From a virus: DNA of 30,009 nt. Positions 2,649 through 30,009 of the stretch are shown piece by piece. Made by a program: the position numbers and the translations under genes. Numbering within the stretch: position 1 is the stretch's first letter; each line of letters starts with the position of its first letter. The notes beneath the pieces are model-generated. The model saw only the letters and a list, made by a program, of their open reading frames with translations, had not been told where the DNA came from and did not search any database. The DNA lies in IMG/VR virus record IMGVR_UViG_3300046010_000123, positions 1-30,009 of that record, one strand, 5' to 3'.

Positions 2649-2905
2649 TGGCTAAAAAGTTTCCTGATTTAACAGGCGATGGGGATGTAACCAGAGCGGA
2701 CATCCTCAAAGGTCGTGGTGTAGAGGGATTTAAGAGCGGTAAGTTTATTCAAGCTGCGATTAAGAAACCGGGAGCACTTCGTGAACAGCTTGGTATTAAA
2801 GGTAAAAAGCCGATTCCTGCGAAGATGCTTGATAAAGCTACTAAGGCTCCAGGCAAACTTGGGCAAAGAGCTAGACTTGCTAAAACGCTTCGAGGGATGA
2901 AGTGA
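2648..2905 (+). CDS. Small basic protein with dockerin/EF-hand-like calcium loop
   Basis: 85 residues; the start ATG overlaps the upstream stop by one base. Residues 7-18 read DLTGDGDVTRAD, a match to the 12-residue calcium loop (ligand positions D7, T9, D11, D13, T15, D18) found in EF-hands and dockerins. It is followed by ILKGRGV. The C-terminal half (KPGALREQLGIKGKKPIPAK, then KAPGKLGQRARLAKTLRGMK) is a recurrent basic phage module. Only one loop is present, so it is not a complete paired EF-hand. Function is unknown; a small virion or DNA-associated protein is likely. Confidence 0.65.
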   Translation: MAKKFPDLTGDGDVTRADILKGRGVEGFKSGKFIQAAIKKPGALREQLGIKGKKPIPAKMLDKATKAPGKLGQRARLAKTLRGMK

Positions 2906-3612
2906 CCACAACTTCAGGTACGACAGCCTTTAATCTCGATCTAAACGAGATTATTGAGGAGTCATTTGAGCGGTGCGGAATTGAGGTGCGTACTGGGTAC
3001 GAACACCGTACGGCACGTCGTTCTATGAATTTGATGTTTACTGAGTGGGCCAACCGAGGGATTAACCTGTGGACGATTGAGCAGGGTCAGATTGCCATGA
3101 CCACGGGCACAATTGTTTATAACTTACCAGTAGATACAGTAGATCTCATCGAGCAGGTTATTCGTACGCAGACTGGGATACCACAGACTGACATCAACAT
3201 CAGCCGTATCTCGGTGGATACTTATGCCACGATACCAAACAAGAACGCTCAAGGTAGACCGATTCAAGTTTGGATCAACAGGCAGTCAGGGGTACTAACA
3301 CCTACTGGGATTGCGTACCCTACGATTAACGTCTGGCCTGCGCCAGACCAAGACAATTACTACACTTTTGTGTACTGGCGATTGCGCCGGATGCAGGATG
3401 CTGGTGGCGGGGCCAATATTCAGGATGTGCCATTTAGGTTTATTAACTGCTTGGCTGCTGGATTAGCGTACTACTTATCGTTAAAGATACCCGAGGCCGC
3501 GCAGCGCATACCCATGCTGAAAGAGATGTATGACGAGCAGTTAAGGCTTGCGCTAGACGAAGACCGCGAGAAAGCACCGTTGCGTCTCGCACCACGGCAG
3601 TTGTTCTACTGA
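2902..3612 (+). CDS. Head-tail adaptor-like protein (gp4/tail tubular A-like)
   Basis: The GTG start at 2902 overlaps the upstream stop as GTGA; 236 residues. The N-terminal part is helical (EIIEESFERCGIEV, then a conserved MNLMFTEWANRGINLW). A beta region follows with IVYNLPVDTVDLIEQVI, GRPIQVWINRQ and TINVWPAPD, and then helices with DVPFRFINCLAAGLAYYLSL. This order (helical start, a YxLPxD strand, WPxP, a C-terminal helix around LAxxLAYYLxxK) is typical of phage connector or adaptor proteins that sit under the portal. The gene at 4395 has the same architecture. The exact family (P22 gp4-like or T7 gp11-like) cannot be fixed by eye. Confidence 0.65.
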   Translation: MTTTSGTTAFNLDLNEIIEESFERCGIEVRTGYEHRTARRSMNLMFTEWANRGINLWTIEQGQIAMTTGTIVYNLPVDTVDLIEQVIRTQTGIPQTDINISRISVDTYATIPNKNAQGRPIQVWINRQSGVLTPTGIAYPTINVWPAPDQDNYYTFVYWRLRRMQDAGGGANIQDVPFRFINCLAAGLAYYLSLKIPEAAQRIPMLKEMYDEQLRLALDEDREKAPLRLAPRQLFY

Positions 3613-4252: not shown

Positions 4253-4395
4253 AACACAGCAAAATGCCAACGCCTGTGCCTGTTAAAGACACGCACAACG
4301 GTTATCCCAACAATGTACCTAACACCCAAACAGTAAAAGTCCGAGGAACCGGATGTGCTACAAAGGGTACGGGTGCTTCTAAGAAGATGGGCTAA
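4249..4395 (+). CDS. Very small phage protein with VRGTG...KGTGASKKMG tail
   Basis: 48 residues, beginning MKHSKMPTPVPVKDTHNGYP. The start overlaps the upstream stop (ATGA) and the stop overlaps the next start (TAATG), so it fits exactly between two coupled genes. The C-terminal KVRGTGCATKGTGASKKMG is a short motif seen in other small phage proteins (VRGTGAATKGT..). Function is unknown. The exact fit and the recognisable motif support a real gene. Confidence 0.6.
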   Translation: MKHSKMPTPVPVKDTHNGYPNNVPNTQTVKVRGTGCATKGTGASKKMG

Positions 4396-5078
4396 TGAAC
4401 TACTCGACCCTTTTTTCGACGATTCAAGGCTATTTAGAGAACGATTTCCCATCGTTTACTGGTGCTGATTCGTCTGGGTCGGGCACAGCTACGCTGACTG
4501 CTAAGCAGCAGATCGATACGTTCATTAAGCAAGCTGAACAACGAATTTACAACTCAGTTCAGTTCCCGCAGTTTAGAAAGAACCAAACAGGCACGATGAC
4601 CGGGGGTAACAAATACCTTGCTATGCCTACTGATTTTTTAGCGGTTTATGAGTTAGCGGTAACTAATCCGACAACGAGCGAGTATGAGTACTTACTCAAT
4701 AAGGATGTTAGCTATATTCGCGCTTCGTATCCCAATCCAACAACGACTGGGATTCCTAAGTATTACGCGCTTTTTGACGAAAATACGTTGATTCTTGGAC
4801 CTACACCTACTTCAAACTACGCTGTAGAGATCCATTACTTCTATTACCCAGAGTCAATCACTACAGCAAACACGACTTGGCTTGGCGATAATTTTGATTC
4901 GGTGCTTCTCTATGGTTCTTTGGTTGAGGGTTATACCTTTATGAAGGGTGAGGCTGATGTTATTGCCAATTACGCCAAACGATATGAAGAAGCCATGATT
5001 CTTGCTAAGCGTCTTGGTGATGGTATGGACCGCCGCGATGCTTACAGGTCTGGTCAGGTCAGGATGTCGGTGAACTAA
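4395..5078 (+). CDS. Phage adaptor protein (SU10-adaptor-like)
   Basis: 227 residues. Helical N-terminus MNYSTLFSTIQGYLENDFPS, then IDTFIKQAEQRIYNSVQFPQ, a beta part with KYLAMPTDFLAVYEL, and TLILGPTPTSNYAVEIHYFY, then C-terminal helices with YEEAMILAKRLGDGMDRR. The pattern (IxxAExRIYNxVxxP, a YLxMPxDFLxV strand, LxLGPTP, YY) matches the phage adaptor family that includes SU10. It would sit between portal and nozzle. The start overlaps the upstream stop by one base and the stop overlaps the next start. Confidence 0.72.
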   Translation: MNYSTLFSTIQGYLENDFPSFTGADSSGSGTATLTAKQQIDTFIKQAEQRIYNSVQFPQFRKNQTGTMTGGNKYLAMPTDFLAVYELAVTNPTTSEYEYLLNKDVSYIRASYPNPTTTGIPKYYALFDENTLILGPTPTSNYAVEIHYFYYPESITTANTTWLGDNFDSVLLYGSLVEGYTFMKGEADVIANYAKRYEEAMILAKRLGDGMDRRDAYRSGQVRMSVN

Positions 5079-5509
5079 TGGCCTTTACTGGAAACTACAC
5101 ATGCAACTCCTTCAAGCAGCAATTGTTTGAGGGAGATTTTGATTTTTCTTCGGGTACGACACAGACTTTTAAAATTGCGCTGTACACCAACAATGCTACG
5201 CTTGACCAGACTACTACGACTTACACGGGTACGACTGGCGAGGTTGTGGCTACAGGTTATACGGCAGGAGGAGAGGCTATCACTCCTTCACTTGCTATTG
5301 ATAGTTCCACAGGTATTGCTTATATTGACTTTTCTGACGCTTCTTGGAGTGGTGCTTTTACTGCTAGGGGTGCTTTAATATATAGAGTTACAACTGGAAA
5401 CCCCGCAATCTGCGTATTGGATTTTGGTTCAGATAAGACTTCGACAACTACGTTTGTCGTTGAGTTTCCTCCCAATACCAGCACCGGCGCACTAATAAGG
5501 CTTGCATGA
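5078..5509 (+). CDS. Small beta-rich structural protein (hypothetical)
   Basis: 143 residues, MAFTGNYTCNSFKQQLFEGD, then FKIALYTNNATL, GEVVATGYTAGGEAI, and a terminal TTTFVVEFPPN...LIRLA. The core pattern (F.IALYT, then GEV.ATGY.AGGEAI, then a final strand ending in a hydrophobic residue) is shared with the gene at 6383, so they look like diverged paralogues. Both are likely virion components, perhaps small fibres or decoration proteins, inferred from position and beta-rich text. One-base overlap with the upstream gene, 4-nt overlap with the downstream gene. Confidence 0.55.
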   Translation: MAFTGNYTCNSFKQQLFEGDFDFSSGTTQTFKIALYTNNATLDQTTTTYTGTTGEVVATGYTAGGEAITPSLAIDSSTGIAYIDFSDASWSGAFTARGALIYRVTTGNPAICVLDFGSDKTSTTTFVVEFPPNTSTGALIRLA

Positions 5510-6381
5510 TGGGCACTCCTGTTGGATTTTTCTCCGAACCACCGACTGTTGTAATTGCTCCAATTCCGCCCAAGGATGATGAAACTTGGGTTGCTGCTGA
5601 AGAAGTGGAGATGGAGGGGTCGTTAAATATAGACTTGGAAGTTCTTAAAACTAACGTAGCACACAACATCAAATTAGGGTTTCAGCAAATTGCTCCCCAT
5701 CCTACGAACGATGTTGAGGTCATGATTGTTGGAGGCGGACCCTCACTTGCCGAACATATAGGCACAATCAAACAGCTACGGCAACAAGGCGTAAAACTTA
5801 TTACGTTAAATAATGCGTATCAATTTTGTATTGATCACGGTCTTCTACCTTCTGCTTATTTTATGGTTGATGGTCGTGAGTTCAACAAACGCTTTTTAAC
5901 ATCGATCATTCCGACCTGTAAGTATTTTCTTTCCTCACAGTGCCACCCGTCTGTGTTTGAAGGTATGCCTAAAGAGCAGACTTATATTTGGCACACCAGT
6001 GCAGAAGAGATTCAAGAGATTTTGGCAACCGAATACAGAAATTGGTATGCGGTGCCTGGGGGTTCGACAGCATTGCTTCGAGCCATCCCTATGTTTAGAA
6101 TGTTAGGGTTTAAGCGGTTTCACATCTTTGGATGCGACTCCTGTTTAGAAGACGGTAAGCATCACGCTTACGCGCAAGCAGAAAACGACGGTCTTCCTGT
6201 TGTGCCGGTAAAAGTTGGTGGAAAGCTCTTTTACTGTCATCCTTGGATGGTCTCGCAAGCAAGGGAGTTTATCGACCTGATTAAGTTCATGGGTGATGTC
6301 ATGGAGCTTCAGGTTTACGGTGGGCTTCTCCATCAAATTTTAGTGACTGGGGCGTCAAACGCCGATATTAAGGAGTATTGA
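5506..6381 (+). CDS. DUF115 / 6-hydroxymethylpterin diphosphokinase MptE-like enzyme
   Basis: About 291 residues. A Rossmann-like start MIVGGGPSLAEHI (GGGPSL at 76-81) is followed by VKLITLNNAYQFCIDHGLLP, AYFMVDGREF, a glycine turn PGGSTALLRA (184-193) and FHIFGCDSC..DGKHHAY (206-222). This V.GGGPSL...N.A......G..P.....D layout is that of the DUF115/MptE-like family, which includes archaeal 6-hydroxymethylpterin diphosphokinase and proteins in flagellin and surface-sugar glycosylation loci. In phages the substrate is unknown. The start at 5506 overlaps the upstream stop (ATGA). It lies between two paralogous structural genes, so it may act on a virion or host surface component; this is inference. 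Confidence 0.7.
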   Translation: MMGTPVGFFSEPPTVVIAPIPPKDDETWVAAEEVEMEGSLNIDLEVLKTNVAHNIKLGFQQIAPHPTNDVEVMIVGGGPSLAEHIGTIKQLRQQGVKLITLNNAYQFCIDHGLLPSAYFMVDGREFNKRFLTSIIPTCKYFLSSQCHPSVFEGMPKEQTYIWHTSAEEIQEILATEYRNWYAVPGGSTALLRAIPMFRMLGFKRFHIFGCDSCLEDGKHHAYAQAENDGLPVVPVKVGGKLFYCHPWMVSQAREFIDLIKFMGDVMELQVYGGLLHQILVTGASNADIKEY

Positions 6382-6382
6382 A

Positions 6383-6844
6383 ATGGCCGCTTCCGCATGG
6401 CAACTCTACAACGACGCCAAACGTTATATTGGCAATGGAACGATTCAGCTTGGTGTTAACAACTTTAGGATGGCGCTTTTTACAAGCGCAAGTAATACCT
6501 CAACGTTTACGCTGAGTACCTTTGGTTCACTGACTAGCGAGATTGCAGCTACTGGGGGTTATGTCTCTGGTGGTAAAGCACTCGTACCGGCGACGGGGCA
6601 GTGGACAACTGGAGCGTCTGCTAAGCAGATGAAGTTTACTTACTCAACGATTGGACTGACATTCACGGCTTCTGGTGCTTCGTTAACCAACGTTAAGTAT
6701 GCTGTAATTTTCCAATCGGCTGCTACGTTAGCCAACGGTAAACTTGTGTGCTTCTGCCAGCTTTCTTCGACTCAGTTTACGGTTTCTTCCCCCAACACGT
6801 TGACGGTGCTTCCTGCTGCAACGGGTGTGTTTACCCTCACCTAA
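6383..6844 (+). CDS. Small beta-rich structural protein, paralogue of the gene at 5078
   Basis: 153 residues, MAASAWQLYNDAKRYIGNGT, then FRMALFTSASN, SEIAATGGYVSGGKAL and VKYAVIFQSA, ending in a Thr/Val-rich strand LTVLPAATGVFTLT. The F.MALFT...SEIAATGGY.SGGKAL core parallels F.IALYT...GEVVATGYTAGGEAI in the gene at 5078. The protein is predicted to be all-beta apart from the first 20 residues. A minor virion role is likely from position. It follows the DUF115-like gene by one base. Confidence 0.55.
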   Translation: MAASAWQLYNDAKRYIGNGTIQLGVNNFRMALFTSASNTSTFTLSTFGSLTSEIAATGGYVSGGKALVPATGQWTTGASAKQMKFTYSTIGLTFTASGASLTNVKYAVIFQSAATLANGKLVCFCQLSSTQFTVSSPNTLTVLPAATGVFTLT

Positions 6845-7899: not shown

Positions 7900-9639
7900 A
7901 TGGCAAGCACATATTCCAATCTTAAATTTGAACTGATTGGGACCGGCGATCAGTCTGGTACGTGGGGAACAACCACCAACACCAACCTGGGCACTGCAAT
8001 TGAGCAAGCCCTTGTTGGCATGGCTACGATCAGTAGCGGGTTTGTTACTAACTCCCTGACGCTTACGCTGACTGATACCAACGCTGCACAGAACGCTCGT
8101 GCGCTGGTTTTAAATCTTACGCAAGCATTGTCAGGGGCAGGAACTCTTAACGTCCCAGCTATCCAGAAGCCTTACATGATTATCAACGCCACGGGTCAAA
8201 CCGTGACAGTCAAGGTGACGGGACTTACAGGCGTTGCTGTTCCAAATGGCACAAGGGCTTTCTTATATAACAACGGTACAGATGTTGGTGAGTTTTTTAA
8301 TTACCATTCTTCTTTAACGCTGGGCACGGCGCTACCGATTACTTCAGGTGGCACAGGCACAACGTCTACAACTTTTGTCAATTTAGCCACGAACGTCACG
8401 GGCACGTTGCCAATTGCTAACGGCGGCACAGGCACGACATCAACTACCTTTGTTAATTTAGCCACGAACGTCACTGGTACGTTACCTGTCGCTAACGGTG
8501 GTACGGGAGGCGCGACTCAAGCTGCGGCTCGCACAGGCATTGGTGCAAGTACCGTTGGTTCTAACTTCTTTACGCTGACCAATCCTTCTGCAATCACCTT
8601 TCCGCGAATGAACGCAGACAACACGGTGTCTGCACTTACTGCTGCGGACTTCCGCACAGCTATTGGGGCTGGTACAGGGGCAGGCACTGTTACAAGTGTT
8701 GCAACCACAGGTACGGTCAACGGTATTACGCTAACCGGCGGGACGATTACCACTTCAGGAACCATAACGCTAGGCGGTACGCTTTCGGGAGTAAGTCTTT
8801 CCACTCAAGTGACGGGAACGCTTCCAGTTGGTAATGGTGGTACGGGAATTACCACAGGAACTTCAGGTGGGATTCCTTATTTCTCAGCAACCAATACGAT
8901 TGCTTCGTCTGCCGCACTAGCTGCAAATGCAATTGTTTTAGGTGGTGGTGCAGGTGTCGCTCCTGCCACAACAACCACAGGTACGGGCGTAGTCACAGCC
9001 GTTGGTAACGCAGTTAATACCACAGGCGGTATAGTTACACAAAGTGGAACGCTTGCTTCTAGTGCGCTTTTATTGGGTGGTGGTGCGGCTACAGCCATTA
9101 CTTCAACCACTACAGGTACAGGTGTCGTCACAGCCGTTGGTAATGCAGTTAACACCACAGGTGGCTTAGTTACACAATCAGGTACTCTTGCTGCTAATAA
9201 CATTTTGCTTGGTGGGGGCGCAAGCACTGCTATTTCCTCGTCAAGTCTTTTATCCACTTCTGCTGCTGTAACTTCAGGCACCTATATCAAGTCAATTGGT
9301 TATGCCGATACGGTTGTAGCCCTGGGGAACACAGGCACAGCAATAAATCTGGATGTTGTCAGTGGTGGTGTATTCACGGCAACGCTGACAGGAAGTGCAA
9401 CAATTACACTGCGTTACCCCGTGTCTTCTGGGTCTTCTTCGTTTACACTCATTCTTACAAATGATGGAACCGCAGGTCGCACAGTAGCATGGGCTGGTGG
9501 TTCGTTTAAGTTCCCTGGTGGTGCAGCGTCTTTGTCGCGTACGACAACGGCAAACGCAGTGGATATTTGGGTCTTCTTCACGCCGGATGGCGGGACGACT
9601 TGGTATGGCAATATTGCCATGAAGAATATGACAGCCTAA
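7900..9639 (+). CDS. Tail fibre protein with GGTG repeats
   Basis: 579 residues. The N-terminus (ASTYSNLKFELIGTGDQSGT, then WGTTTNTNLGTAIEQAL) is a standard virion-attachment start in aquatic phage fibres. From residue about 145 the protein carries repeats ending LPI/VANGGTG (a classic phage fibre unit), then a duplicated 45-residue block around TGTGVVTAVGNAVNTTGG. The C-terminal part (ATLTGSATITLRYPVSSGSS, then WVFFTPDGGTTWYGNIAMKN) looks like a beta domain that may contact the host. It would be a trimeric receptor-binding fibre. It is followed 14 nt later by a short coiled-coil gene and then by the oxygenase block. Confidence 0.82.
   Translation: MASTYSNLKFELIGTGDQSGTWGTTTNTNLGTAIEQALVGMATISSGFVTNSLTLTLTDTNAAQNARALVLNLTQALSGAGTLNVPAIQKPYMIINATGQTVTVKVTGLTGVAVPNGTRAFLYNNGTDVGEFFNYHSSLTLGTALPITSGGTGTTSTTFVNLATNVTGTLPIANGGTGTTSTTFVNLATNVTGTLPVANGGTGGATQAAARTGIGASTVGSNFFTLTNPSAITFPRMNADNTVSALTAADFRTAIGAGTGAGTVTSVATTGTVNGITLTGGTITTSGTITLGGTLSGVSLSTQVTGTLPVGNGGTGITTGTSGGIPYFSATNTIASSAALAANAIVLGGGAGVAPATTTTGTGVVTAVGNAVNTTGGIVTQSGTLASSALLLGGGAATAITSTTTGTGVVTAVGNAVNTTGGLVTQSGTLAANNILLGGGASTAISSSSLLSTSAAVTSGTYIKSIGYADTVVALGNTGTAINLDVVSGGVFTATLTGSATITLRYPVSSGSSSFTLILTNDGTAGRTVAWAGGSFKFPGGAASLSRTTTANAVDIWVFFTPDGGTTWYGNIAMKNMTA
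8347..8515 (+). repeat. 75-bp tandem repeat in the tail fibre
   Basis: Two full copies and the start of a third of a 25-residue unit, GGTGTTSTTFVNLATNVTGT plus LP(I/V)AN, begin at about 8347, 8422 and 8497. Confidence 0.8.
8935..9240 (+). repeat. 135-bp tandem repeat in the tail fibre
   Basis: A 45-residue unit centred on TGTGVVTAVGNAVNTTGG starts at about 8980 and again at about 9115, with partial LGGGA units before, between and after. DNA identity is high, so this duplication looks more recent than the other fibre repeats. Confidence 0.8.
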
Positions 9640-9652
9640 TAGGAGTAAGAAA

Positions 9653-9886
9653 ATGGCTTTAACCGCAGAACAGCAAGCACAAGTTGACGTTCAATTAGCC
9701 GTTGAAAACGCACGACATGCCAATCAGATGCAAGCCGAGGCAGTTCGCGTAAAGCTTGAGGCAGTTCGTCTGGCGAAAGAAACGCTAATTGAGAATGCTC
9801 GCAGCAAACCTGTAGACGCTCGTGATGTATCAGCGGCTGATATTCAAACTTTTGCTCAAACGCTTGTGTCTTACGTTAACGGATGA
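9653..9886 (+). CDS. Short coiled-coil hypothetical protein
   Basis: 77 residues with an AGGAG ribosome-binding site about 8 nt upstream. MALTAEQQAQVDVQLAVENA, then continuous Ala/Glu/Gln/Arg heptad-like helix to about residue 50, then VDARDVSAADIQTFAQTLVS. It lies between the tail fibre and the oxygenases, so it may be a fibre-associated helper. Function is unknown. Confidence 0.6.
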   Translation: MALTAEQQAQVDVQLAVENARHANQMQAEAVRVKLEAVRLAKETLIENARSKPVDARDVSAADIQTFAQTLVSYVNG

Positions 9887-10476
9887 TTCAGGGTTTTGCG
9901 TACTTCCCTGCCATCGTCTACCGCGATGAACATCCTGAGTGGGTTGATTATGCGTTAAGAGTGTCTCAAAAATACTTTGACGCGCAAACCAGTCAGGGTG
10001 CCATGTGTCAAACAGGTCATATGGGTAGCGATCCTGAGATGAAGTTTTTAACGGATTATTTGCTGTCAACCAGCCATGACATTCTGGCGGGGCAAGGCTA
10101 CGCAATGGATCGCTATGAGCTTTATGTTTCAGGTTTGTGGGGTCAGGAGGTAAAAGGACATGGTGGCACAAATGTGCATGTGCATAAACACAGCCAGCTT
10201 TGCGGATGGTTTTTCTTAGAAACCCCTGAAGGCGGGTCATATCCTGTGTTTTATGATACTCGTGCTAACAAGCAAATGATTGAGCTTGACTTTGCGCCAA
10301 GCAATGAAGTGACTAACGCAACTTCAACTATCCATTTCAACAACATCATCCCCGGCACGATATTGCTAGCCAATTCATGGATGCAGCATCAACTAACCCC
10401 CAACATGACAGATAAGCCAACCAAGAGCATTCATTTTATTGTTTCACATAGGGATAAGTCATGCAGTACTTGTTGA
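9883..10476 (+). CDS. 2-oxoglutarate/Fe(II) dioxygenase, first of four
   Basis: 197 residues; the start overlaps the upstream stop (ATGA). The double-stranded beta-helix signature reads GTNVHVHKHSQLCGWFFLE (H99, H101, H103), then YPVFYDTR, and later GTILLANSWMQHQLTPN with the distal histidine and KSIHFIVS as the last strand. The layout fits the PF13759-like phage 2OG-Fe(II) oxygenases (HxHxxSxLxG...DxR). Such enzymes use iron, O2 and 2-oxoglutarate to hydroxylate proteins, nucleic acids or small molecules. Substrate is unknown. Overlaps the next oxygenase by 16 nt. Confidence 0.75.
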   Translation: MIQGFAYFPAIVYRDEHPEWVDYALRVSQKYFDAQTSQGAMCQTGHMGSDPEMKFLTDYLLSTSHDILAGQGYAMDRYELYVSGLWGQEVKGHGGTNVHVHKHSQLCGWFFLETPEGGSYPVFYDTRANKQMIELDFAPSNEVTNATSTIHFNNIIPGTILLANSWMQHQLTPNMTDKPTKSIHFIVSHRDKSCSTC

Positions 10477-11048
10477 CACCTTATGCCGAAACAGTTGAGC
10501 CTTTTGTTTGGTGGGAAGGCGCATTTAATGATAAAGAACTTGATTTACTTCAAGAACGAGCTATCAAAGCTGATCAAAGAGCGCAAGTTGGTGGCAATCC
10601 CGATGCAGAGCATTTGGCAAAAATTAGACGTTCTCATATTTCATGGATAGGCTGTAATGACGAAACGCGTTGGGTGTTTGATAAGTTAGCCCATGCTGTG
10701 TCATCACTCAATTCACAGTTTTATCGGTTTGATTTAACAGGGTTTGGTGAACCCTTGCAGCTTACAAACTATGATCAGTCTGAAAACGGTATGTATGGTT
10801 GGCATCAGGATTACGGTGGTAAACGCGGTGTAAGTAGGAAGCTTTCAGCAGTGCTTCAATTGACTGACCCCGCTCAGTATGAAGGCGGTAATCTCCAAGT
10901 AATGACAGGGGGTCAGCCAATGAATGTACGGAAACAGCGTGGACTTATCGCTGTTTTTCCTTCATACCAACTTCATCAAGTAACACCCGTGACGCAAGGC
11001 AGTCGTCAAAGTCTTGTGGCATGGCTTTCAGGACCAGCATTTCGATGA
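10461..11048 (+). CDS. 2-oxoglutarate/Fe(II) dioxygenase, PKHD-like, second of four
   Basis: 195 residues. Iron ligands are visible as H115-x-D117 in YGWHQDYGG and H172 in YQLHQVTPV; R182 in SRQSLVAWLSGP fits the 2-oxoglutarate-binding arginine. The strands between (SAVLQLTDP, YEGGNLQVM, RGLIAVFPS) follow the prolyl-4-hydroxylase/PKHD fold closely. This is the most canonical of the four. Proteins of this type commonly hydroxylate Pro, Asn or Lys side chains, but the target here is unknown. Overlaps both neighbours (16 nt and 4 nt). Confidence 0.85.
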   Translation: MQYLLTPYAETVEPFVWWEGAFNDKELDLLQERAIKADQRAQVGGNPDAEHLAKIRRSHISWIGCNDETRWVFDKLAHAVSSLNSQFYRFDLTGFGEPLQLTNYDQSENGMYGWHQDYGGKRGVSRKLSAVLQLTDPAQYEGGNLQVMTGGQPMNVRKQRGLIAVFPSYQLHQVTPVTQGSRQSLVAWLSGPAFR

Positions 11049-11641
11049 ATATTGAGTACAACGGATTTATTGGTATTTATAACGATGTGTATCCTGAAGG
11101 ATATTGCCAACACTTAATTAGTGAGTTTGATCGTTTAGAAAAAGATAGTGTAGGGTCCAATCGTTGGCAATCCGAAAAAGCTTTAGAATCTAGAAAAAAT
11201 GATTACCAGATTGGCTTAGATTTACGGGGCCATAGCACTAATGACTTTCAAGATAAACGTATTGTGTCTATGTTTTTTGATGGTTTACAAGTTTGTTATG
11301 ACGAGTACACACGTAAATTTTCAAGCCTCAAAGATGGAAAAATTCGTGCTAATGTGATGAAAATGCAGCGCACTCCTCCTGGTGGTGGCTACCATGTTTG
11401 GCATGGGGAACAAGGCAACGGAGATCATACAGGGCGGGTGCTTGTTTATATGCTGTACCTCAACACGTTAACGCAAGAAGAGGGTGGCGAAACAGAATTT
11501 TTGTACCAAAGGCAGAGATTTAACCCAACTAAAAATCAAATGATTTTATGGCCTGCTTCATTTACTCACACTCATAGGGGCAATACTGTGCTTGGGGATT
11601 GTTCAAAATATGTCGTAACAGGGTGGTTTTATTATGACTGA
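11045..11641 (+). CDS. 2-oxoglutarate/Fe(II) dioxygenase, P4H-like, third of four
   Basis: The start ATG 11045 overlaps the upstream stop as ATGA and gives 198 residues; an in-frame ATG at 11021 would overlap the upstream gene by 28 nt. Motifs: PPGGGYHVWHGEQG (probable iron ligands H120-x-E122, with Glu in place of the usual Asp), VLVYMLYLN, GGETEFLYQ, ILWPASFTHTHRGN (distal H175 or H177) and KYVVTGWFYYD with K188 as the likely 2-oxoglutarate anchor. This is a prolyl-4-hydroxylase-type arrangement. Base composition is AT-rich (about 34% GC in two sampled lines around 11101-11220). Confidence 0.78.
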   Translation: MNIEYNGFIGIYNDVYPEGYCQHLISEFDRLEKDSVGSNRWQSEKALESRKNDYQIGLDLRGHSTNDFQDKRIVSMFFDGLQVCYDEYTRKFSSLKDGKIRANVMKMQRTPPGGGYHVWHGEQGNGDHTGRVLVYMLYLNTLTQEEGGETEFLYQRQRFNPTKNQMILWPASFTHTHRGNTVLGDCSKYVVTGWFYYD

Positions 11642-12227
11642 AGCGATTACAAACCCAGAACAGTTTGAACGGTTTGGTTGTGTGCTGGTCCAAGAATTTT
11701 TAGACCCAGTAACAACACAAACAATTTCAATGTATTTAGAAAACAAACTTCGTAGACAAGAATGGCAGGCAAGTTCAGAAAATCCTACGACCGAACTCGC
11801 ATATTACGCCGATCCGCTAATTGAAACGGTGTTGTTAAATAGTCTTCCTTTGGTGTCTGAGGTGTGCGGTAAGGAGCTTTACCCAACCTATTCTTATATG
11901 CGTGTTTATCAGCCTGGGGAAGAGCTTGAGCCGCATGTTGATCGTCCATCTTGCGAGATTAGCGTTACAGTCAATGTTGCTTCAAAAGGTCGCCCATCCC
12001 CAATATGGATGCACTATAAAGATAATGAACCCCATTCATTTACACTCAATCCAGGTGATGCGGTTATATATAAAGGCTGTGAAGCAAAGCATTGGCGTGA
12101 TACTTTTAAGCGCGATCAAATGAATGTTCAATTTATGTTGCACTATGTTGACACTGCTGGACCACATGCGGATAAACGCTTTGACGCTAGGTCTGGTCTA
12201 GGTTTTCCCTCTACACGGAGGTCATAA
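11634..12227 (+). CDS. 2-oxoglutarate/Fe(II) dioxygenase, fourth of four
   Basis: 197 residues; the start lies 8 nt inside the upstream gene. YSYMRVYQPGEELEPHVDRP gives H101-x-D103, followed by SCEISVTVNV, and the distal histidine is H153 in CEAKHWRD after PGDAVIYKG. The R-Y-x-x-G-x-x-L-x-x-H-x-D-R-x-x-C-E-I-S text is a recognisable phage 2OG-Fe(II) oxygenase signature. Substrate unknown. The stop overlaps the start of the glycine-rich protein by one base, so oxygenases and adhesin are in one translational chain. Confidence 0.8.
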   Translation: MTEAITNPEQFERFGCVLVQEFLDPVTTQTISMYLENKLRRQEWQASSENPTTELAYYADPLIETVLLNSLPLVSEVCGKELYPTYSYMRVYQPGEELEPHVDRPSCEISVTVNVASKGRPSPIWMHYKDNEPHSFTLNPGDAVIYKGCEAKHWRDTFKRDQMNVQFMLHYVDTAGPHADKRFDARSGLGFPSTRRS

Positions 12228-13198
12228 TGCCTGCTGGTACACCTAAAGTCACGATGTTTGGGGGTAAGTCTATTGTCCCCGGCGGGAGCCAAACATTTAA
12301 TAGTCCAGGAACTTTCACAGTACCTGTAGGGGTTACAAAAGTTTCTGCTACTGGAAAAGGCGCAACTGGAAACGCAGGTGCGTCGGGGAACCCTGGTAAC
12401 GCTGGCGGCGGGGGCGGGGGCGGGGGCGGGGGGTTTTGGACTCCTGGGTGCGGAAGAAATTCGGGTGGAAATGGTGGAAACGCAAACCCCGGAGGTTCAG
12501 GCGGGACTGGTAACGGGTATGCTTGTAGTCCCTCCCCATCAGGTTCTTCGGGTTCTGCCGGTACTAGTGGTAATACCGGAGCTGCTGGTAATACCGGAGC
12601 TGCTTCTACTGTTTTTTCTCAAAGTTTTCCAGGTGGAGCTGGAGGTAATGGGGGTAATGGAGGTACTGGAGGTGCTTCCACTGGTAATGGGGGTAATGGA
12701 GGGCGAGGACAACCGTTTAACGGTAATACTTCTGGTGGTAGTGGAGGTACAGGTAATTATTCAGGGGGCCAAGGGGGTCTTGGAGTTTATTTTAGATCTG
12801 GTGGTGGAGGTGGGGGTGCTGGGATATATGGAGCCGGTGTTGCGCCACCCCCTAGTCCTGTTTGTGTTGTAGGATGCCCCGGTCCGGGTGGTCCTGGGTT
12901 CGGTGGTCCTGGGGGAAGAGGTTCAAATAGTGGTGTTGGGGGTAATCCTGGCAGTCCTGGTTATTGTGGTGGTGGAGGTGGTGGTGGAGGTGGTTTTGGA
13001 CCATCCGCTGGGTGTTACTATAATGTGGCTAGTGGTGGTGGAGGGGGTGGTGCTGGTAGCCAAGGAAATGGTGGAAATCCTGGAAACCCTGGAGCTGCTG
13101 CAAATCCAACAACTTACAATTGTATATCTGTTTCTCCTGGGGCTAATTACCCAGTTACGGCAAACGGACCTATAACAATTTCATGGAACCCACAATGA
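12227..13198 (+). CDS. Glycine-rich tail adhesin-like protein
   Basis: 323 residues after GGAGG at 5-nt spacing. The N-terminus (GGSQTFNSPGTFTVPVGVTK) is the common phage glycine-rich-domain start (QTF..PGT.TVP.GVT.V). Most of the rest is Gly with Asn, Ser and Pro: poly-Gly runs of about 8-10 residues, GNPGSPG, and CPGPGGPGFGGPGGRG. The C-terminus ends in TANGPITISWNPQ. Such sequences are known to form packed polyglycine-II helices in the S16/T4-type gp38 adhesin tip, so a receptor-binding tip is a reasonable inference. Five scattered Cys residues may form disulfides. The gene directly follows the oxygenases and overlaps the next gene (ATGA). Confidence 0.68.
   Translation: MPAGTPKVTMFGGKSIVPGGSQTFNSPGTFTVPVGVTKVSATGKGATGNAGASGNPGNAGGGGGGGGGGFWTPGCGRNSGGNGGNANPGGSGGTGNGYACSPSPSGSSGSAGTSGNTGAAGNTGAASTVFSQSFPGGAGGNGGNGGTGGASTGNGGNGGRGQPFNGNTSGGSGGTGNYSGGQGGLGVYFRSGGGGGGAGIYGAGVAPPPSPVCVVGCPGPGGPGFGGPGGRGSNSGVGGNPGSPGYCGGGGGGGGGFGPSAGCYYNVASGGGGGGAGSQGNGGNPGNPGAAANPTTYNCISVSPGANYPVTANGPITISWNPQ
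12410..12433 (+). other. G-quadruplex-type sequence inside the glycine-rich gene
   Basis: Four G runs (5, 5, 5 and 6 G) separated by single C residues occur on the coding strand. This is a textbook intramolecular G-quadruplex pattern. It encodes part of a poly-Gly run through alternating GGC and GGG codons, unlike the GGT/GGA-rich glycine runs elsewhere in the same gene. Confidence 0.7.
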
Positions 13199-13689
13199 AT
13201 CCCAAAATGAAACAAATTGAAGCCCAAATGCAGCTTGAAGCAAGATTGGGGGATTTAAATCGTGCCCGTTCAGTTACAGTTGGAACGGCTTTTGGGGGTA
13301 TTACTGAAATCTCCATGAGAGCTAACAATAGGTATTTGTGGTGCATTTTACAACCAGTAGAAGTTATTGAATTTATCCATCAACTAGCAGCAAGTGTTGG
13401 ATGCCATATACACATTCAACCAAGAAAAGATTTTTCGAGTTGGCGGGATTGGAAATACACGGAAGAAGAACTTGCACATTATCGAGGCGAGCAACCCGGA
13501 GAGTGGAGGCGTGCTGAAGGATTTGCGCCTTTTCCTAAAGGTTGGCATGAGAACCAGCAAACGGCAGCAGCATTACCCGTCCCGGAGAGACAACCTGGGT
13601 TAAATATTGAAAGGAAACAAAATGAGCCTGTGGCAACTAAAAAAACTGTCAACCGGCGAAGCACTAAACGAGCCGCAACCACTACCTGA
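13195..13689 (+). CDS. Conserved hypothetical protein between adhesin and fibre chaperone
   Basis: The start at ATG 13195 forms an ATGA overlap with the upstream stop (164 residues); an in-frame ATG at 13183 is possible. N-terminal helix MKQIEAQMQLEARLGDLNRA, then SVTVGTAFGGITEISMRANN, LWCILQPVEVIEFIHQLAAS and HIHIQPRKDFSSWRDWKYTE. A basic, disordered tail ends the protein (TKKTVNRRSTKRAATTT). I recognise no enzyme motif. The position before a tail-fibre assembly chaperone suggests a fibre-related role. The 3' end overlaps the next gene by 68 nt. Confidence 0.55.
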   Translation: MNPKMKQIEAQMQLEARLGDLNRARSVTVGTAFGGITEISMRANNRYLWCILQPVEVIEFIHQLAASVGCHIHIQPRKDFSSWRDWKYTEEELAHYRGEQPGEWRRAEGFAPFPKGWHENQQTAAALPVPERQPGLNIERKQNEPVATKKTVNRRSTKRAATTT

Positions 13690-14008
13690 AAATTGGGGGC
13701 CGATCTTCGGTCTTCATGGCTTTGCGGATCGGTTAGGTGATTTGTCTTGGTTGGGTGAAGCCTATAACGACCAAGGTTGGATTCAGGTTGGCGAAGCACC
13801 ACCCCCTCCAGCCGTAGCAACCAAAGCGCAGCTTGAATGGGATCGCGCTAAAAAAATGCTGCAAGAGTCGGATTGGTCAATGCTGCCTGATGTGCCGATG
13901 ACTGCTGGTGATAAAGCTGCGTGGATTGAGTATCGTCGTGGGTTGCGTGAAATTAGGCTTCAAGCAGGTTTTCCTGACGATATTATTTGGCCTATAAGAC
14001 CATTATAA
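13622..14008 (+). CDS. Tail fibre assembly chaperone-like protein
   Basis: ATG 13622 is preceded by AAAGGAAAC, giving 128 residues starting MSLWQLKKLSTGEALNEPQP. The C-terminal half reads WDRAKKMLQESDWSMLPDVP, then KAAWIEYRRGLREIRLQAGF, then PDDIIWP. This W.......L..SDW..LPD.P......W..YR..LR.I....FP...WP signature is that of phage tail-fibre assembly chaperones (PF16778-like). These help trimerise or fold fibre proteins, which supports the view that the genes at 7900 and 12227 are fibre or tip components. Overlaps the upstream gene by 68 nt. Confidence 0.78.
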   Translation: MSLWQLKKLSTGEALNEPQPLPENWGPIFGLHGFADRLGDLSWLGEAYNDQGWIQVGEAPPPPAVATKAQLEWDRAKKMLQESDWSMLPDVPMTAGDKAAWIEYRRGLREIRLQAGFPDDIIWPIRPL

Positions 14009-24874: not shown

Positions 24875-27800
24875 ATGGCTGAAGGTCGTTATGACAGGGT
24901 CATCCGTAATGTAAGAAAGATGATCTCGCAGGGTGCTCCTGAATTTGATATTGATGGGTATCTTGATTCTGAAGGACTTACCCCATCACAATTTAAACGT
25001 ATCGTCGAAGGTCCGACAATTGGCGGACAACTCAAGGAAGCCGTCAAGGGCATAGTGCCTGGAGCGATTGGGCTTGTTGAGCAAGCTGCTGTTGGTGCGT
25101 CTGCGCTCTTACCTGACCAGTATGAAGCTGGTGCACAGGAAGCCATTCGTGGAGTTGCTGCCGCAGCGAAGAAACCATTTGCACCTGAAGCAGGGTACGA
25201 AGAATCGGTAGGTCGTAAGTTTGGTGAAGCGGTAGGTTCGTTTGGACCGTTCTTGGGTTTAGGTGCACTGGGTGTCGCAGGTCGTGTCGGAGCAGGTGCA
25301 CTAGCTACGGGGTCTGGTGCGGGTGAAGCGTTAACACGTGCACAACAAGAAGGTGCGACTCCTGGGCAGCAGTCTCTATCCACAGGACTTGGTGCCGTTG
25401 TGGGTCTGTCTGAACTTATTACACCGTTCAGAATCTTATCGCGCATACCTGAAGGCGAAGTATTAAGCGCGGCTAATCGCATAAAACGTGTCGCACTTGC
25501 CGGTGGAGAAGAAGCTGCACAAGAAGCTGCTGCTGGGTTAGCACAGAACTTAATTGCTCGTGGCGTTTATAAACCTGAACAACAACTTGTTGAGGGGCTA
25601 GGCGAACAGGCTGCATATGGTGGTGCGGTTGGTGCGTTGGCACAAGGTCTTTTAGATGTTGCACTTGGACGTAGAGCTAAAACTGCGGCTACACCGGCAC
25701 AACCCACTACCCCTGCGGTAGAAGAACAAGCAACTACGGCAGCGGTTACGCAACCTGCTGCACCTACAACATTTGCCCCCGTACGCGGTGTACCAGAGAC
25801 TGCTACACAGCAAGACCTCTTTACAGAAGAAAACATTCAGCGCACCGCACAATCAACACGTGATGCTCAGGACCGTCTGTTTAAGTTGAGAGATGAATTT
25901 GATCTTTATCAGCGAGAGAACGAAAGACTTGCGGCAGCTTATGAACGTGAAACTGATCCTACTAAAAAGCAGCAGATCTACGATCAAGCAGTAGCACTTG
26001 CAAAGCCACTCAGCGAACTAAAGACTCAGATCGAAGCTGTAAAAGGTACGCTTGGTGCAGCGGAAGGTGCACGCCCTGGCACTGGAGAACCGCAGCTAGA
26101 TTTTGAAGCTCCGTTGCCTAGTATCGGTGATCGCGTTGGACAAGTTACTAAGACTGAGTACCGACCAGATACAGGGGCGGTTATTGGCGAAGAAGCCGCA
26201 GCTCCACGTTTGAACGAGCAGCAACAGCGCATGCTGGAAGAACAGCGTGTGCAAGGTATTCGTGACAAGATCGCAGCAGGAGAACCCGTAACCCAAGCGG
26301 ACATGATGCGGGTTAAGTTCTTAGAGCGTGATCAGTATCAAGAGGAAGCAGCTAAACCGACCCCTGAGTTAGACCTATCGCAGCAAAAAGTAACTAGGTT
26401 TCCATTAACGCTTCAGCGCACGGACATCGAGCAGCAGAAGATGAAAGTGCAGGAGCAACCTGCTGCACCAGAAACTCGTCCTGTGACAGAACAGGACTTT
26501 CGTACGATGGGAGTTGCTGCAACTAACAAGAAGTTACGCAGTGAGTTGTTAGGTAAAGATTTATCTAACCCCGAAGATCGTAGGTTTGTGAAGGAGCGTC
26601 TTGAGGCTTTTGCTTCAGACCCTAATCGTAGTCCTGGCATTGTTAAGAAGGTTGAGAACTTTTTAGATAGTCCTATATTCTTTGAGCAGATGGAGTTACC
26701 GTTAGCTCCGAGGAGAAAACAACGTGTCAAACAACCTAAGCAACCTGTCGCCGGAGCAAGTCAGCCAAGCGTTCCTGTACCTGACCAAGGAGCTGCCGTC
26801 GCTGCCCCCGGACCTGAAGCACCTGTCACAACTGGAGTGGGCGAACCTGCATTACGCGCTGAGCCACGTGATGTGGCAGAAGGAAAACAGCCCGCTCCAG
26901 TAAATCCTGAAGTAGAAACCCTTCGTAAGCAATATCAGCGCAGGGTGGAGAAGGGAACAATGGAGCTTGCTGATGCTAAGCCCATCGAAGATTTGTTGGC
27001 GAATCCAACACCGGAAAACATCAATCAAGCGCGTCAGATCCTAAAGGGCACTGCCACCGTAGGAGAAGGAGTTGTCGCGGGAGTTGCGCTTACTCCTGAA
27101 GAACAACGTGCGTTAGATAAAGAAGCAAAAGCTACAGTACGTAGAGAAGGCGCGGGGACAGTAAAAATTCCTGGCACGTTGTACCGCACGCAAAGGTCTG
27201 AAGAACAAGCTGCGGGTATGGACCCTGCAATCGTTGAAGATTATGTTGCTCAAATTGTAGACGGTTGGAAAAACGCGCCTGTCATTGATGTTGTCAATAC
27301 ACCTGCCGACTTACCAAAGCGGTTACGTGAAGGCACGGATATTCAGCCTGGGTTGTTTGATCCTGTCACGGGGCGTGTGTTCGTTATCGCGTCTAATCTT
27401 AAAAACGAATTAGACCTTTTCCAAACAGTTTTGCATGAAACCGTAGGGCACTACGGTATGCGTTCGCTTCTTGGGGATAGCTACACCCGAGTAATGAACA
27501 ACCTGTACAACGGCAACGAAAAGGTACGGGAAGCTGCAAAAGAAAAGATGGAGGCAAACTCCAAACTAACCAAAGAAGTAGCGGTTGAAGAGTTTTTAGC
27601 TGAAGTCGCAGAGAGGAACATTAAGCCAAATCCAAGCAAAGCTGACAAGAGCCTTGGCAATCAGATCGTTAGGTTCTTCCGTAATGCGCTTAGAAAGTTG
27701 TTTGGTAAAAAAGCAGACTTGATCTCTGATACAGAGGTGCTGGATATCGTTGCTGAAGCTCGGATGTTTGTGCAAACGGGCACCCCTACGCAAGGTTATA

Positions 27801-30009
27801 AAAATGTTTCAGATAGAGAAGTGCCGCTTTACCGTACCCCAGAAACAAGTGCGTTCAAAAAATGGTTTGGTGATAGCAAGATAGTTGACAAAGACGGGAA
27901 GCCGTTAGTTTTATATCGTGGAATACAAGGCGATGCGGAGGGGGCACTCAATGCTGAGCCAAGAGGGAAGTACAACGTTTTTGCATCGGATAGCCCAGAC
28001 GTTGCTGCCTCATATGGTATGCCAGACGAAACTTTCGGGACTCCCGGTTCTATCCTTCCGATATACGTCAAGGCAGATAAACTAATTGAGTTCCCCGTAA
28101 CTGTAGACCGATACGGTTCACGTAGTTTTGACAAGATAGAGTTTGACCGCCGCGCTAGACTCCTTGCCCCTGGCGAAGTTCTTGTAGCCAGACAGGTAGT
28201 TGATATCGGGCCTATGTCTCGTGAAGCGTATGCGGTAGATAAGGAAAAAAAGTACTCCTACTATAGTGATGTCTACGCACTTGGCAGGGGAACTTCAGTT
28301 AAATCCGCCGTTGGCAACCGAGGAACGTTCGACCCCACAAGTCAAGATATCCTTTATCGCACTCCAACACCCGCACTAACAGCAGCGGGGCAGCAAGCAC
28401 AAGCAGCGGTAGCTGCTATGGCAGGTATAACAAATGCCAAGCCCAAGGGTCCGCAGATGTCTACGCTTCAAAAAGTTGGAGCGTTCTTCCAAGACCCTGC
28501 ATACCGTCAAGAGCAGATCGATAAGTTCCGTGTGCAGGTAGCGTATAAGGGTGCGGCTGCTGAGTCGAAGCTCGCCATGCTCAACCAGTACAACGGCAAG
28601 ATCCGTGATGCGTTAGGTAACATTCGTCCTGATGTGTTTATGACTGCTGCGGAACATGCCGATACGATGGCTGTTGCCGTGATGAAGGATGGCAAGTTAA
28701 AGCTTGATCCGAAGGTGGGCTGGGTTGCAGAGAAGGGCACTGCTTCCTTCCAAGGTGTTATCGATAAGATCAAGGATCTTGGCACCAAGCTAGGCGATCA
28801 GCAGCTCGCGTTTAAATTAGCAAACGATGCGTTTATTGCTCGTCGTGCGAACTACTTCAAACAGCACCCGCAACTTGGTATCTCTGGCTTACCTGATGAT
28901 GCAAAGATCAAAGCAGGTATGCAAGCCTTCAAAGACTTCCCTGAGTTAGAAGCTGCGTTCAAAGAGTTCACCACATTTAAGAACAACTTGATTGATGCGG
29001 GTGTCGATGCAGGACGCTTTAGTAAAGAGCAAGCTGCCGAGTGGAAAGAAGCTGCGGACTATGTACCGTGGAACCGTATCAAAGATTATGAGGACAAGAT
29101 TGCTACAAGTCCTCAAGCGTACTTCCGTGGGTTGACCAACCTCAAGCAGATGAAAGAGATCCGAGGCGGCACCGACGAGATCAACGACATCTTTGACAAC
29201 ATGGTGGGCCTGTCCTTCTGGCTTGTTAACGGTGCGATACGCAACCATGCTGCGGTGCAACTTACTGACGCATTTGTATCCAACGGGTTAGGTGCGCGGC
29301 AGGTACGCCAAGGACAGCCTGGAGTTGACCCCAACAAGACAATCTATATCTACCGCGATGGCAAGCCTGAAGTCTATGAGTACGAGTCGATAGCAGATGT
29401 TTATGCGTTCAAGGGTGTGGAAAGCATGGGGGGTCCGATCCTCAGCAGCTTCACTGCGTTCGCTAACATCTTACGGCGCACGACCACAGCTACTCCTCAG
29501 TTCGCAGCAAGTCAGTTATTCCAAGATGCGTATCGCGCCACGGTGACATCAGGCGTGAAGAATCCGTTTGAGGTTGCTGCCAAAGTCTTAACAGGTGCAG
29601 TGGGTGCGTACCGTGGGGATGCCACGACACAGCAGCTTGAGAAGTTTGGGATTGTGGGCGCATATGACCTGATGCCTGGACGTGCCAAGGATGAGATCGA
29701 GAAAGAGTTTGGGATTCGGCAGCGGTCTGTGCTTGAGAAGGGGCTGTCGTTCATGGAGTCATTCTCCATCGCCTCTGATGCCTCGTTGCGTAAAGCAGTC
29801 TTTGAGCAGACGTTAGAAGAAACTAAGTCGCCGCAGTTCCCCGATGGTGACGTGCTGCTTGCACGGTATCGCGCTCAAGAAGTCATCAACTTCAAACGGC
29901 AAGGTGCAAACCGGACGGTGGGTCTAATGCGCCAACTCATTCCGTTTATGAACGCCTACATCCAAGGTATGGATGTGTTCTACCGCACAATGACCGGACG
30001 TGGGGTTGC
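24875..30009 (+). CDS. Giant polyvalent protein (metallopeptidase- and ADP-ribosyltransferase-like domains), 3' end outside window
   Basis: ATG 24875 follows AGGGGG at 4 nt. The frame stays open to the right edge, giving at least 1,711 residues. N-terminal 30 residues look like a small capsid-targeting helix pair; Gly/Ala-rich segments at about 50-180 could be membrane-active. Around 850-912: LHETVGHYG (H854, E855, H859, a HExxGH zinc motif as in dipeptidyl peptidase III) and, 46 residues later, EEFLAE (E905/E906 as third-ligand candidates). Around 986-1168: TPETSAFKKWFGDSK, then LVLYRGI (Y1014, R1015), FASDSPDVAASYG and NRGTFDPTSQDILYRTP, matching the ADP-ribosyltransferase-like domain of polyvalent proteins. 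The last visible region (RQLIPFMNAYIQGMDVFYRT) resembles LPD38. Polyvalent proteins are thought to be co-injected with phage DNA to counter host defences. Confidence 0.8.
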   Translation, partial: MAEGRYDRVIRNVRKMISQGAPEFDIDGYLDSEGLTPSQFKRIVEGPTIGGQLKEAVKGIVPGAIGLVEQAAVGASALLPDQYEAGAQEAIRGVAAAAKKPFAPEAGYEESVGRKFGEAVGSFGPFLGLGALGVAGRVGAGALATGSGAGEALTRAQQEGATPGQQSLSTGLGAVVGLSELITPFRILSRIPEGEVLSAANRIKRVALAGGEEAAQEAAAGLAQNLIARGVYKPEQQLVEGLGEQAAYGGAVGALAQGLLDVALGRRAKTAATPAQPTTPAVEEQATTAAVTQPAAPTTFAPVRGVPETATQQDLFTEENIQRTAQSTRDAQDRLFKLRDEFDLYQRENERLAAAYERETDPTKKQQIYDQAVALAKPLSELKTQIEAVKGTLGAAEGARPGTGEPQLDFEAPLPSIGDRVGQVTKTEYRPDTGAVIGEEAAAPRLNEQQQRMLEEQRVQGIRDKIAAGEPVTQADMMRVKFLERDQYQEEAAKPTPELDLSQQKVTRFPLTLQRTDIEQQKMKVQEQPAAPETRPVTEQDFRTMGVAATNKKLRSELLGKDLSNPEDRRFVKERLEAFASDPNRSPGIVKKVENFLDSPIFFEQMELPLAPRRKQRVKQPKQPVAGASQPSVPVPDQGAAVAAPGPEAPVTTGVGEPALRAEPRDVAEGKQPAPVNPEVETLRKQYQRRVEKGTMELADAKPIEDLLANPTPENINQARQILKGTATVGEGVVAGVALTPEEQRALDKEAKATVRREGAGTVKIPGTLYRTQRSEEQAAGMDPAIVEDYVAQIVDGWKNAPVIDVVNTPADLPKRLREGTDIQPGLFDPVTGRVFVIASNLKNELDLFQTVLHETVGHYGMRSLLGDSYTRVMNNLYNGNEKVREAAKEKMEANSKLTKEVAVEEFLAEVAERNIKPNPSKADKSLGNQIVRFFRNALRKLFGKKADLISDTEVLDIVAEARMFVQTGTPTQGYKNVSDREVPLYRTPETSAFKKWFGDSKIVDKDGKPLVLYRGIQGDAEGALNAEPRGKYNVFASDSPDVAASYGMPDETFGTPGSILPIYVKADKLIEFPVTVDRYGSRSFDKIEFDRRARLLAPGEVLVARQVVDIGPMSREAYAVDKEKKYSYYSDVYALGRGTSVKSAVGNRGTFDPTSQDILYRTPTPALTAAGQQAQAAVAAMAGITNAKPKGPQMSTLQKVGAFFQDPAYRQEQIDKFRVQVAYKGAAAESKLAMLNQYNGKIRDALGNIRPDVFMTAAEHADTMAVAVMKDGKLKLDPKVGWVAEKGTASFQGVIDKIKDLGTKLGDQQLAFKLANDAFIARRANYFKQHPQLGISGLPDDAKIKAGMQAFKDFPELEAAFKEFTTFKNNLIDAGVDAGRFSKEQAAEWKEAADYVPWNRIKDYEDKIATSPQAYFRGLTNLKQMKEIRGGTDEINDIFDNMVGLSFWLVNGAIRNHAAVQLTDAFVSNGLGARQVRQGQPGVDPNKTIYIYRDGKPEVYEYESIADVYAFKGVESMGGPILSSFTAFANILRRTTTATPQFAASQLFQDAYRATVTSGVKNPFEVAAKVLTGAVGAYRGDATTQQLEKFGIVGAYDLMPGRAKDEIEKEFGIRQRSVLEKGLSFMESFSIASDASLRKAVFEQTLEETKSPQFPDGDVLLARYRAQEVINFKRQGANRTVGLMRQLIPFMNAYIQGMDVFYRTMTGRGV

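Follow-up and report, generated by a model that had tools for sequence, protein, structure and literature searches.

Oxygenases dependent on Fe(II) and 2-oxoglutarate (2OG) make up one of the largest sets of unexplained genes in marine phages, where they are treated as auxiliary metabolic genes (AMGs). Runs of such genes are already known. Cyanophage S-SCSM1 (MK867354) has 24 oxygenases spread across its genome, and four of its oxygenase genes, ORF240-243, are consecutive, overlap and stand directly before tail-fibre genes (PMC9602691); Pelagibacter phage HTVC023P (gp65-gp67; MN698239) and phage 023Pt_psg01 carry three consecutive overlapping oxygenase genes in the tail region. Here we describe a run of four oxygenase genes, termed A to D, in the 30,009-base IMG/VR virus record IMGVR_UViG_3300046010_000123 (this whole stretch is referred to as the window), which spans a portion of a tailed phage's virion module. 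The run is directly followed by a gene for a glycine-rich protein, and the link to this partner is, within the literature searched, the new part: no paper found there gives a phage 2OG oxygenase a demonstrated substrate or connects oxygenase cassettes of this sort with a glycine-rich protein, and on phage tail hydroxylation nothing direct was found.

The described systems each share some traits with this locus and differ in others. The genes of HTVC023P are of the B, A and D types, the D-type gene being named ferrochelatase there, but their order is B-A-D, the run is without C, identity to the genes of the window is 26-40%, and the glycine-rich protein, encoded several genes upstream, is a different one of PF21722 type. 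The run of S-SCSM1 consists of two PF13759 and two PF13640 members, undetected by profiles of A to D. In Synechococcus phage S-MbCM6 (KJ019063) a protein with 39% Gly is encoded directly before B-type and D-type genes; however, this phage is T4-like, the pair is without A or C, and the glycine-rich protein is without NPG repeats. The collagen prolyl hydroxylase of chlorovirus PBCV-1 (5c5t) is likewise virus-encoded and has the same fold (the predicted structure of A matches it with a Z score of 15.5), but it is a single gene in a eukaryotic virus, and its match to C, the only one between C and known prolyl 4-hydroxylases, is weak and not significant (E 0.53). The PKHD-type hydroxylases PiuC and YbiX resemble the catalytic half of B, although their gene context is different. 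By analogy only, the polyglycine-II adhesins gp38 of T-even phages and S16 (PMC12892980) may also be compared, as these tail-tip proteins, too, have both glycine-rich motifs and variable segments, whereas the glycine-rich protein of the window has no sequence match to any solved structure.

Linkage of the oxygenase cassette to a glycine-rich protein

A preliminary description of the window had reported four consecutive, overlapping oxygenase genes, and their open reading frames (ORFs) were confirmed on the plus strand: A (9883-10476, 197 amino acids (aa)), B (10461-11048, 195 aa), C (11045-11641, 198 aa) and D (11634-12227, 197 aa), with overlaps of 16 nucleotides (nt) between A and B, 4 nt between B and C and 8 nt between C and D. 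The gene for the glycine-rich protein (12227-13198, plus strand; 323 aa, 37% Gly) overlaps D by 1 nt. A longer ORF for C opens at ATG 11021, but ATG 11045 is, judged by comparison of relatives, the most likely start because 116 of 120 loci share the 4-nt overlap with B that results from it; it also reproduces the residue numbering (H120, E122) given previously. Within the run, counts of candidate promoters and terminators were no higher than the shuffled level.

The cassette recurs widely. A search of IMG/VR with A alone yielded 67 dereplicated loci, with untruncated ABCD in 33 and ABC in 26, and all loci with enough downstream sequence carry B and C; searches with B, C and D agree with this outcome. 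Overall, A, B and C occur together in more than 100 uncultivated virus contigs, with D present in about half of them, so that a chance arrangement is excluded. The 8-nt overlap of C and D is kept in 58 of 61 loci, strong purifying selection acts on each of the four genes (low ratio of nonsynonymous to synonymous substitution rates (dN/dS), where dS could be estimated), and of 12 contigs measuring 44-65 kb, 10 have their PF13640 and PF13759 matches in this cluster alone (the exceptions, G002 and G006, each have one further match, ~3 kb and ~10 kb off, respectively). Together, the shared occurrence, the conserved junctions, the selection and the confinement support the joint function that had been proposed for the four genes. 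In other phages, more distant relatives of the individual genes are found separately, as A alone or as B+D pairs. Neither these separate relatives nor the glycine-rich partner had been foreseen, nor the fact that isolates already carry three or four oxygenase genes in a row next to tail genes.

Recent duplication as the origin of the four genes was rejected, as it had been before: B and C are 28% identical over only 54 aa, and A and D give no meaningful alignment, so from their sequences the four oxygenases would at most be ancient paralogues. Single genes look as if they have been swapped by recombination, to judge from L005, in which A is 57% identical while B is 93% identical, and L006, in which C is 62% identical.

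The gene directly after the last oxygenase encodes a glycine-rich protein in 82 of the 87 ABC(D) loci with enough sequence, and in the remaining five no ORF of at least 150 aa was called at this position. Its start usually lies less than 30 nt from the last oxygenase gene, and in loci without D it follows C. The first ~45 and last ~20 residues of the protein are conserved, and the body varies in length and sequence. The linkage also holds in the reverse direction. When the first 49 residues of the glycine-rich protein were used as a query blind to oxygenases, oxygenase genes were found upstream in 60 of 60 dereplicated loci among the best 80 of 192 matches, including three (L499, L503 and L512) in which the homologue of A has shifted to a place directly after the glycine-rich gene. 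In two other loci (L465 and L466) an additional B-type gene lies downstream of that gene. The oxygenase set thus stays around the glycine-rich gene despite changes in order. Near distant A genes that occur singly, glycine-rich ORFs are concentrated in the 2 kb upstream.

The glycine-rich protein of the window contains five NPG and 14 GNxG motifs and is rich in Gly-Asn-Pro/Ala triplets. Across the cassette-linked proteins, NPG occurs 1.48 times per 100 aa, about six-fold the 0.26 of shuffled sequences, and GNxG 3.88 times compared with 1.04, and the median of Gly-x-x runs is 9 compared with 5. NPG is near zero in glycine-rich proteins encoded beside A alone (0.04) or without an oxygenase within 10 kb (0.09). 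The possibility that D marks a particular residue type was rejected: the motif content is unaffected by its presence. No Pfam match at E<=1 (Gly_rich_2, PF21722, included) and no PHROGs name was obtained for the protein of the window. For its relatives the outcome was almost as empty, the best member of the family reaching 17.5 bits against PF21722 (cut-off 24.3). A search of the PDB, gp38 structures included, likewise gave no sequence match at E<=1 for this low-complexity sequence. The protein is probably a tail adhesin, its tail location being suggested by the place of its gene between those for a tail fibre (7900-9639, plus strand) and a Phage_tail_APC chaperone (13607-14008, plus strand).

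The four oxygenases and the ferrochelatase label

All four proteins carry the iron-ligand motifs noted previously, and their metal-site residues are conserved, so that the objections to a joint function considered in the preliminary description fail. Profile searches place A in PF13759 and both B and C in PF13640 above the respective cut-offs, and D reaches only a sub-threshold score with PF13532; structure prediction gives oxygenase barrels for A and D. The preliminary description had, however, overstated the HVHKH text of A: only H99 and H101, together with H169, are invariant (171 of 171 sequences), the last His of the text is usually Asn among these relatives, and no acidic residue is conserved. 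A scores 40.8 bits with PF13759 (cut-off 27) and stays below the curated score of subfamily TIGR02466 (51.9 vs 62.5 bits). Its predicted structure (predicted local distance difference test (pLDDT) 92.2) matches 3bvc and 2rg4 (Z 19-19.5, with 3bvc at 19.5) and then prolyl hydroxylases, including the chlorovirus enzyme. On the basis of this model, the place of A in the 2OG-Fe(II) superfamily is limited to that of a PF13759-type protein sharing the fold, and from the sequence alignment a three-histidine iron site seems possible in its family. The HxH text recurs in 3bvc and 2rg4, relatives with solved structures. A search of bacterial genomes with A gave three distant matches only, in metagenome-assembled genomes, which do not indicate a host.

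The assignment of B (55.6 bits) and C (48.7 bits) to the double-stranded beta-helix fold follows from their PF13640 scores. Their predicted triads are H115/D117/H172, with R182, in B and H120/E122/H177, with K188, in C; the triad residues of B, C and D are conserved at 0.99-1.00 in 117-130 sequences. The catalytic, C-terminal half of B aligns by sequence with 3dkq (2e-9) and PiuC, and B stays below the best cut-off of the PiuC/YbiX PKHD-type equivalogs (65.6 vs 143 bits). In C, K188 is invariant; we take it to lie at about the position where collagen prolyl hydroxylases bind 2OG via a Lys. C also matches phrog_274, named "DNA endonuclease V" (5e-9), which B matches weakly, and a gene named as this type (L226:6304-6786) stands just before the oxygenases in 023Pt_psg01; judging from these matches, the phrog_274 label may denote another misannotated oxygenase family.

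D matches phrog_2954 (4e-46), and its score with the AlkB-like family PF13532 is 20.2 bits (cut-off 31.2). Its family goes by the name "ferrochelatase" in PHROGs and in many records of cyanophages and pelagiphages. This identity was rejected for D: no ferrochelatase match was found in Pfam (E<=1) and no match of any kind in NCBIfam, and the model, built from 45 sequences (pLDDT 93.8), is an oxygenase barrel like those of SnoN, the bacterial prolyl hydroxylase 4j25 and human PHD2 (Z 17.7-17.9). According to this model the fold of D is a prolyl-hydroxylase-like barrel, and because the model goes together with a conserved H-x-D...H triad (H101/D103/H153), we consider the family to consist of oxygenases. 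The "ferrochelatase" label on phrog_2954 and phrog_3531 (L020:8611-9231, L229:7614-8222 and other phage records) therefore appears, on structural prediction, to be wrong. The correction concerns a widespread annotation tied to haem and iron metabolism. Published haem and iron inferences for pelagiphages rest on this label: PMC9599517 built such a link on it, and every "ferrochelatase" in that study had an oxygenase alongside. The 453-aa product of ORF248 of S-SCSM1 (L231:6643-8004) matches the profiles of both D and B and has two oxygenase domains according to PMC9602691; this apparent D+B fusion is a hint, from profile matches, that D and B may act together.

Candidate function and alternative explanations

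Our results suggest that the enzymes serve to hydroxylate the attachment protein of the phage itself and not to alter host metabolism. The cassette would form a tail-associated protein-hydroxylation module, its enzymes being produced alongside the tail-fibre proteins from a single series of overlapping genes. With Fe(II), O2 and 2OG, each enzyme would act on its own residue type or site in the neighbouring glycine-rich protein and hydroxylate it while the protein is being made or afterwards, but before assembly; the modified protein would then become a receptor-binding component of the virion. The NPG triplets would be the likeliest target of C, which is prolyl-4-hydroxylase-like in having a Lys in the presumed 2OG-binding place, and Asn or other residues those of A, B and D. 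Such hydroxylation could stabilize a Gly-X-Y or polyglycine-type fold, decorate the receptor-contacting surface or tune the receptor contacts. The nearest folds of A and D do include protein hydroxylases, namely PHD2, a bacterial prolyl 4-hydroxylase and the chlorovirus collagen prolyl 4-hydroxylase, and X-Pro-Gly is, in a passage of PMC9676403 that cites primary work, the classic context of collagen prolyl hydroxylation. As a single repetitive glycine-rich protein is the neighbour that stays constant, the multi-site half of the "multi-step or multi-site" pathway suggested previously fits better than the multi-step half. We judge the probability that the four enzymes hydroxylate the glycine-rich protein in this way, each with its own residue or context, to be evenly balanced. 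More tentative, and in our view rather doubtful, is the idea of a dedicated multi-enzyme hydroxylation system for a phage adhesin, in which particular Asn and Pro residues are converted by several diverged oxygenases in a receptor-binding protein of collagen-like or polyglycine type and one of the enzymes possibly has an all-histidine iron site. Under this idea many of the 2OG AMGs of marine phages would be enzymes of virion maturation rather than of metabolism. If hydroxylation of the glycine-rich protein proves true, tail adhesins would mature through a step that is new for phages. A concrete candidate substrate emerges from the two-way linkage, which ties the cassette to a single family of repetitive proteins.

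Several observations weigh against hydroxylation of the glycine-rich protein. A has no HxD/E...H iron triad, the acidic ligand not being conserved among its 171 sequences. The linked glycine-rich proteins share ancestry and form one family, and their motif enrichment therefore counts as one correlation and not as many independent observations; moreover, their NPG content is the same with or without D. Among 43 loci sharing the neighbouring stabilization protein, the presence of any oxygenase and of any glycine-rich ORF were unassociated (Fisher p 0.48), and we therefore restrict the claim to the specific glycine-rich family of the cassette. Distant B+D pairs are mostly without a glycine-rich neighbour, the fibres after ORF240-243 of S-SCSM1 are not glycine-rich, and virions of PBCV-1, whose prolyl hydroxylase is comparable, are reportedly without hydroxyproline.

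Some of these points would also fit a different target, such as another protein of the tail module (the 579-aa fibre, a 77-aa protein encoded at 9653-9886 or a 168-aa protein encoded at 13183-13689, both on the plus strand) or the glycans or lipids of the host surface, with the glycine-rich gene being a fixed neighbour in a tail-specificity module. Oxygenase runs do stand beside the fibres of S-SCSM1 and other tail genes (HTVC027P), and the genes for the 77-aa protein, the fibre and the chaperone are likewise constant neighbours. It is the glycine-rich gene, however, that is the immediate neighbour with or without D, and its NPG and GNxG content tracks the ABC cassette, so that we regard another target as unlikely. 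The prevailing reading for cyanophages and pelagiphages, in which oxygenases are AMGs changing the 2OG, nitrogen or iron metabolism of the host (stated in PMC9602691, with an AMG class in PMC9599517), seems improbable for this cassette, with four diverged enzymes locked in a tail module and confined there in most long contigs, and with the iron and haem link having depended on the ferrochelatase name that the model of D contradicts.

Modification or repair of nucleic acids or nucleotides, as carried out by AlkB or thymine hydroxylases, could be read from the sub-threshold PF13532 match of D, and DNA repair has been proposed for cyanophage homologues (PMC2984593); yet in fold D most closely resembles prolyl hydroxylases and small-molecule enzymes, and the genes lie in the tail module, not beside replication genes, which makes such a role very improbable. 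Least probable of all is that the genes are mobile cargo without joint function that stand by chance in a variable tail region. The apparent independent swaps in L005 and L006 and the absence of D from about half of the cassettes would be consistent with cargo, but more than 100 contigs share one gene order and the same overlaps, the catalytic residues do not vary, and dN/dS is low. Hydroxylation of the glycine-rich protein is the explanation that we prefer.

Flanking genes and further observations in the window

Profile searches identified in the window genes for adaptor, tail fibre, tail chaperone, holin-like, endolysin, stabilization-type and ejection-type proteins. The tail fibre gene forms the upstream end of the module around the cassette (phrog_7760 tail fiber, 2e-6). 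The gene for the 77-aa protein is conserved, with a homologue at the same place in ABC(D) relatives, and lies directly upstream of A with an overlap of 4 nt. On the other side, the gene for the 168-aa protein follows the glycine-rich gene and has homologues in relatives, and the chaperone gene (PF16778, Phage_tail_APC, 47.3 bits), whose start codon is uncertain, forms the downstream end.

Further upstream, genes of the adaptor region are duplicated, with two of SU10_adaptor type (2902-3612 and 4395-5078) and two of phrog_644 (5078-5509 and 6383-6844). Between the latter two lies an MptE-like domain (5506-6381; PF01973, 70.8 bits, cut-off 34.6), and a virion module is an odd location for such a pterin-kinase-like protein. 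The protein encoded at 24875-30007 is more than 1,700 aa long and runs off the end of the window; its sub-threshold match to the ADP-ribosyltransferase family ART-PolyVal (24.7 bits, cut-off 31.2) suggests that it is possibly a polyvalent ejected protein.

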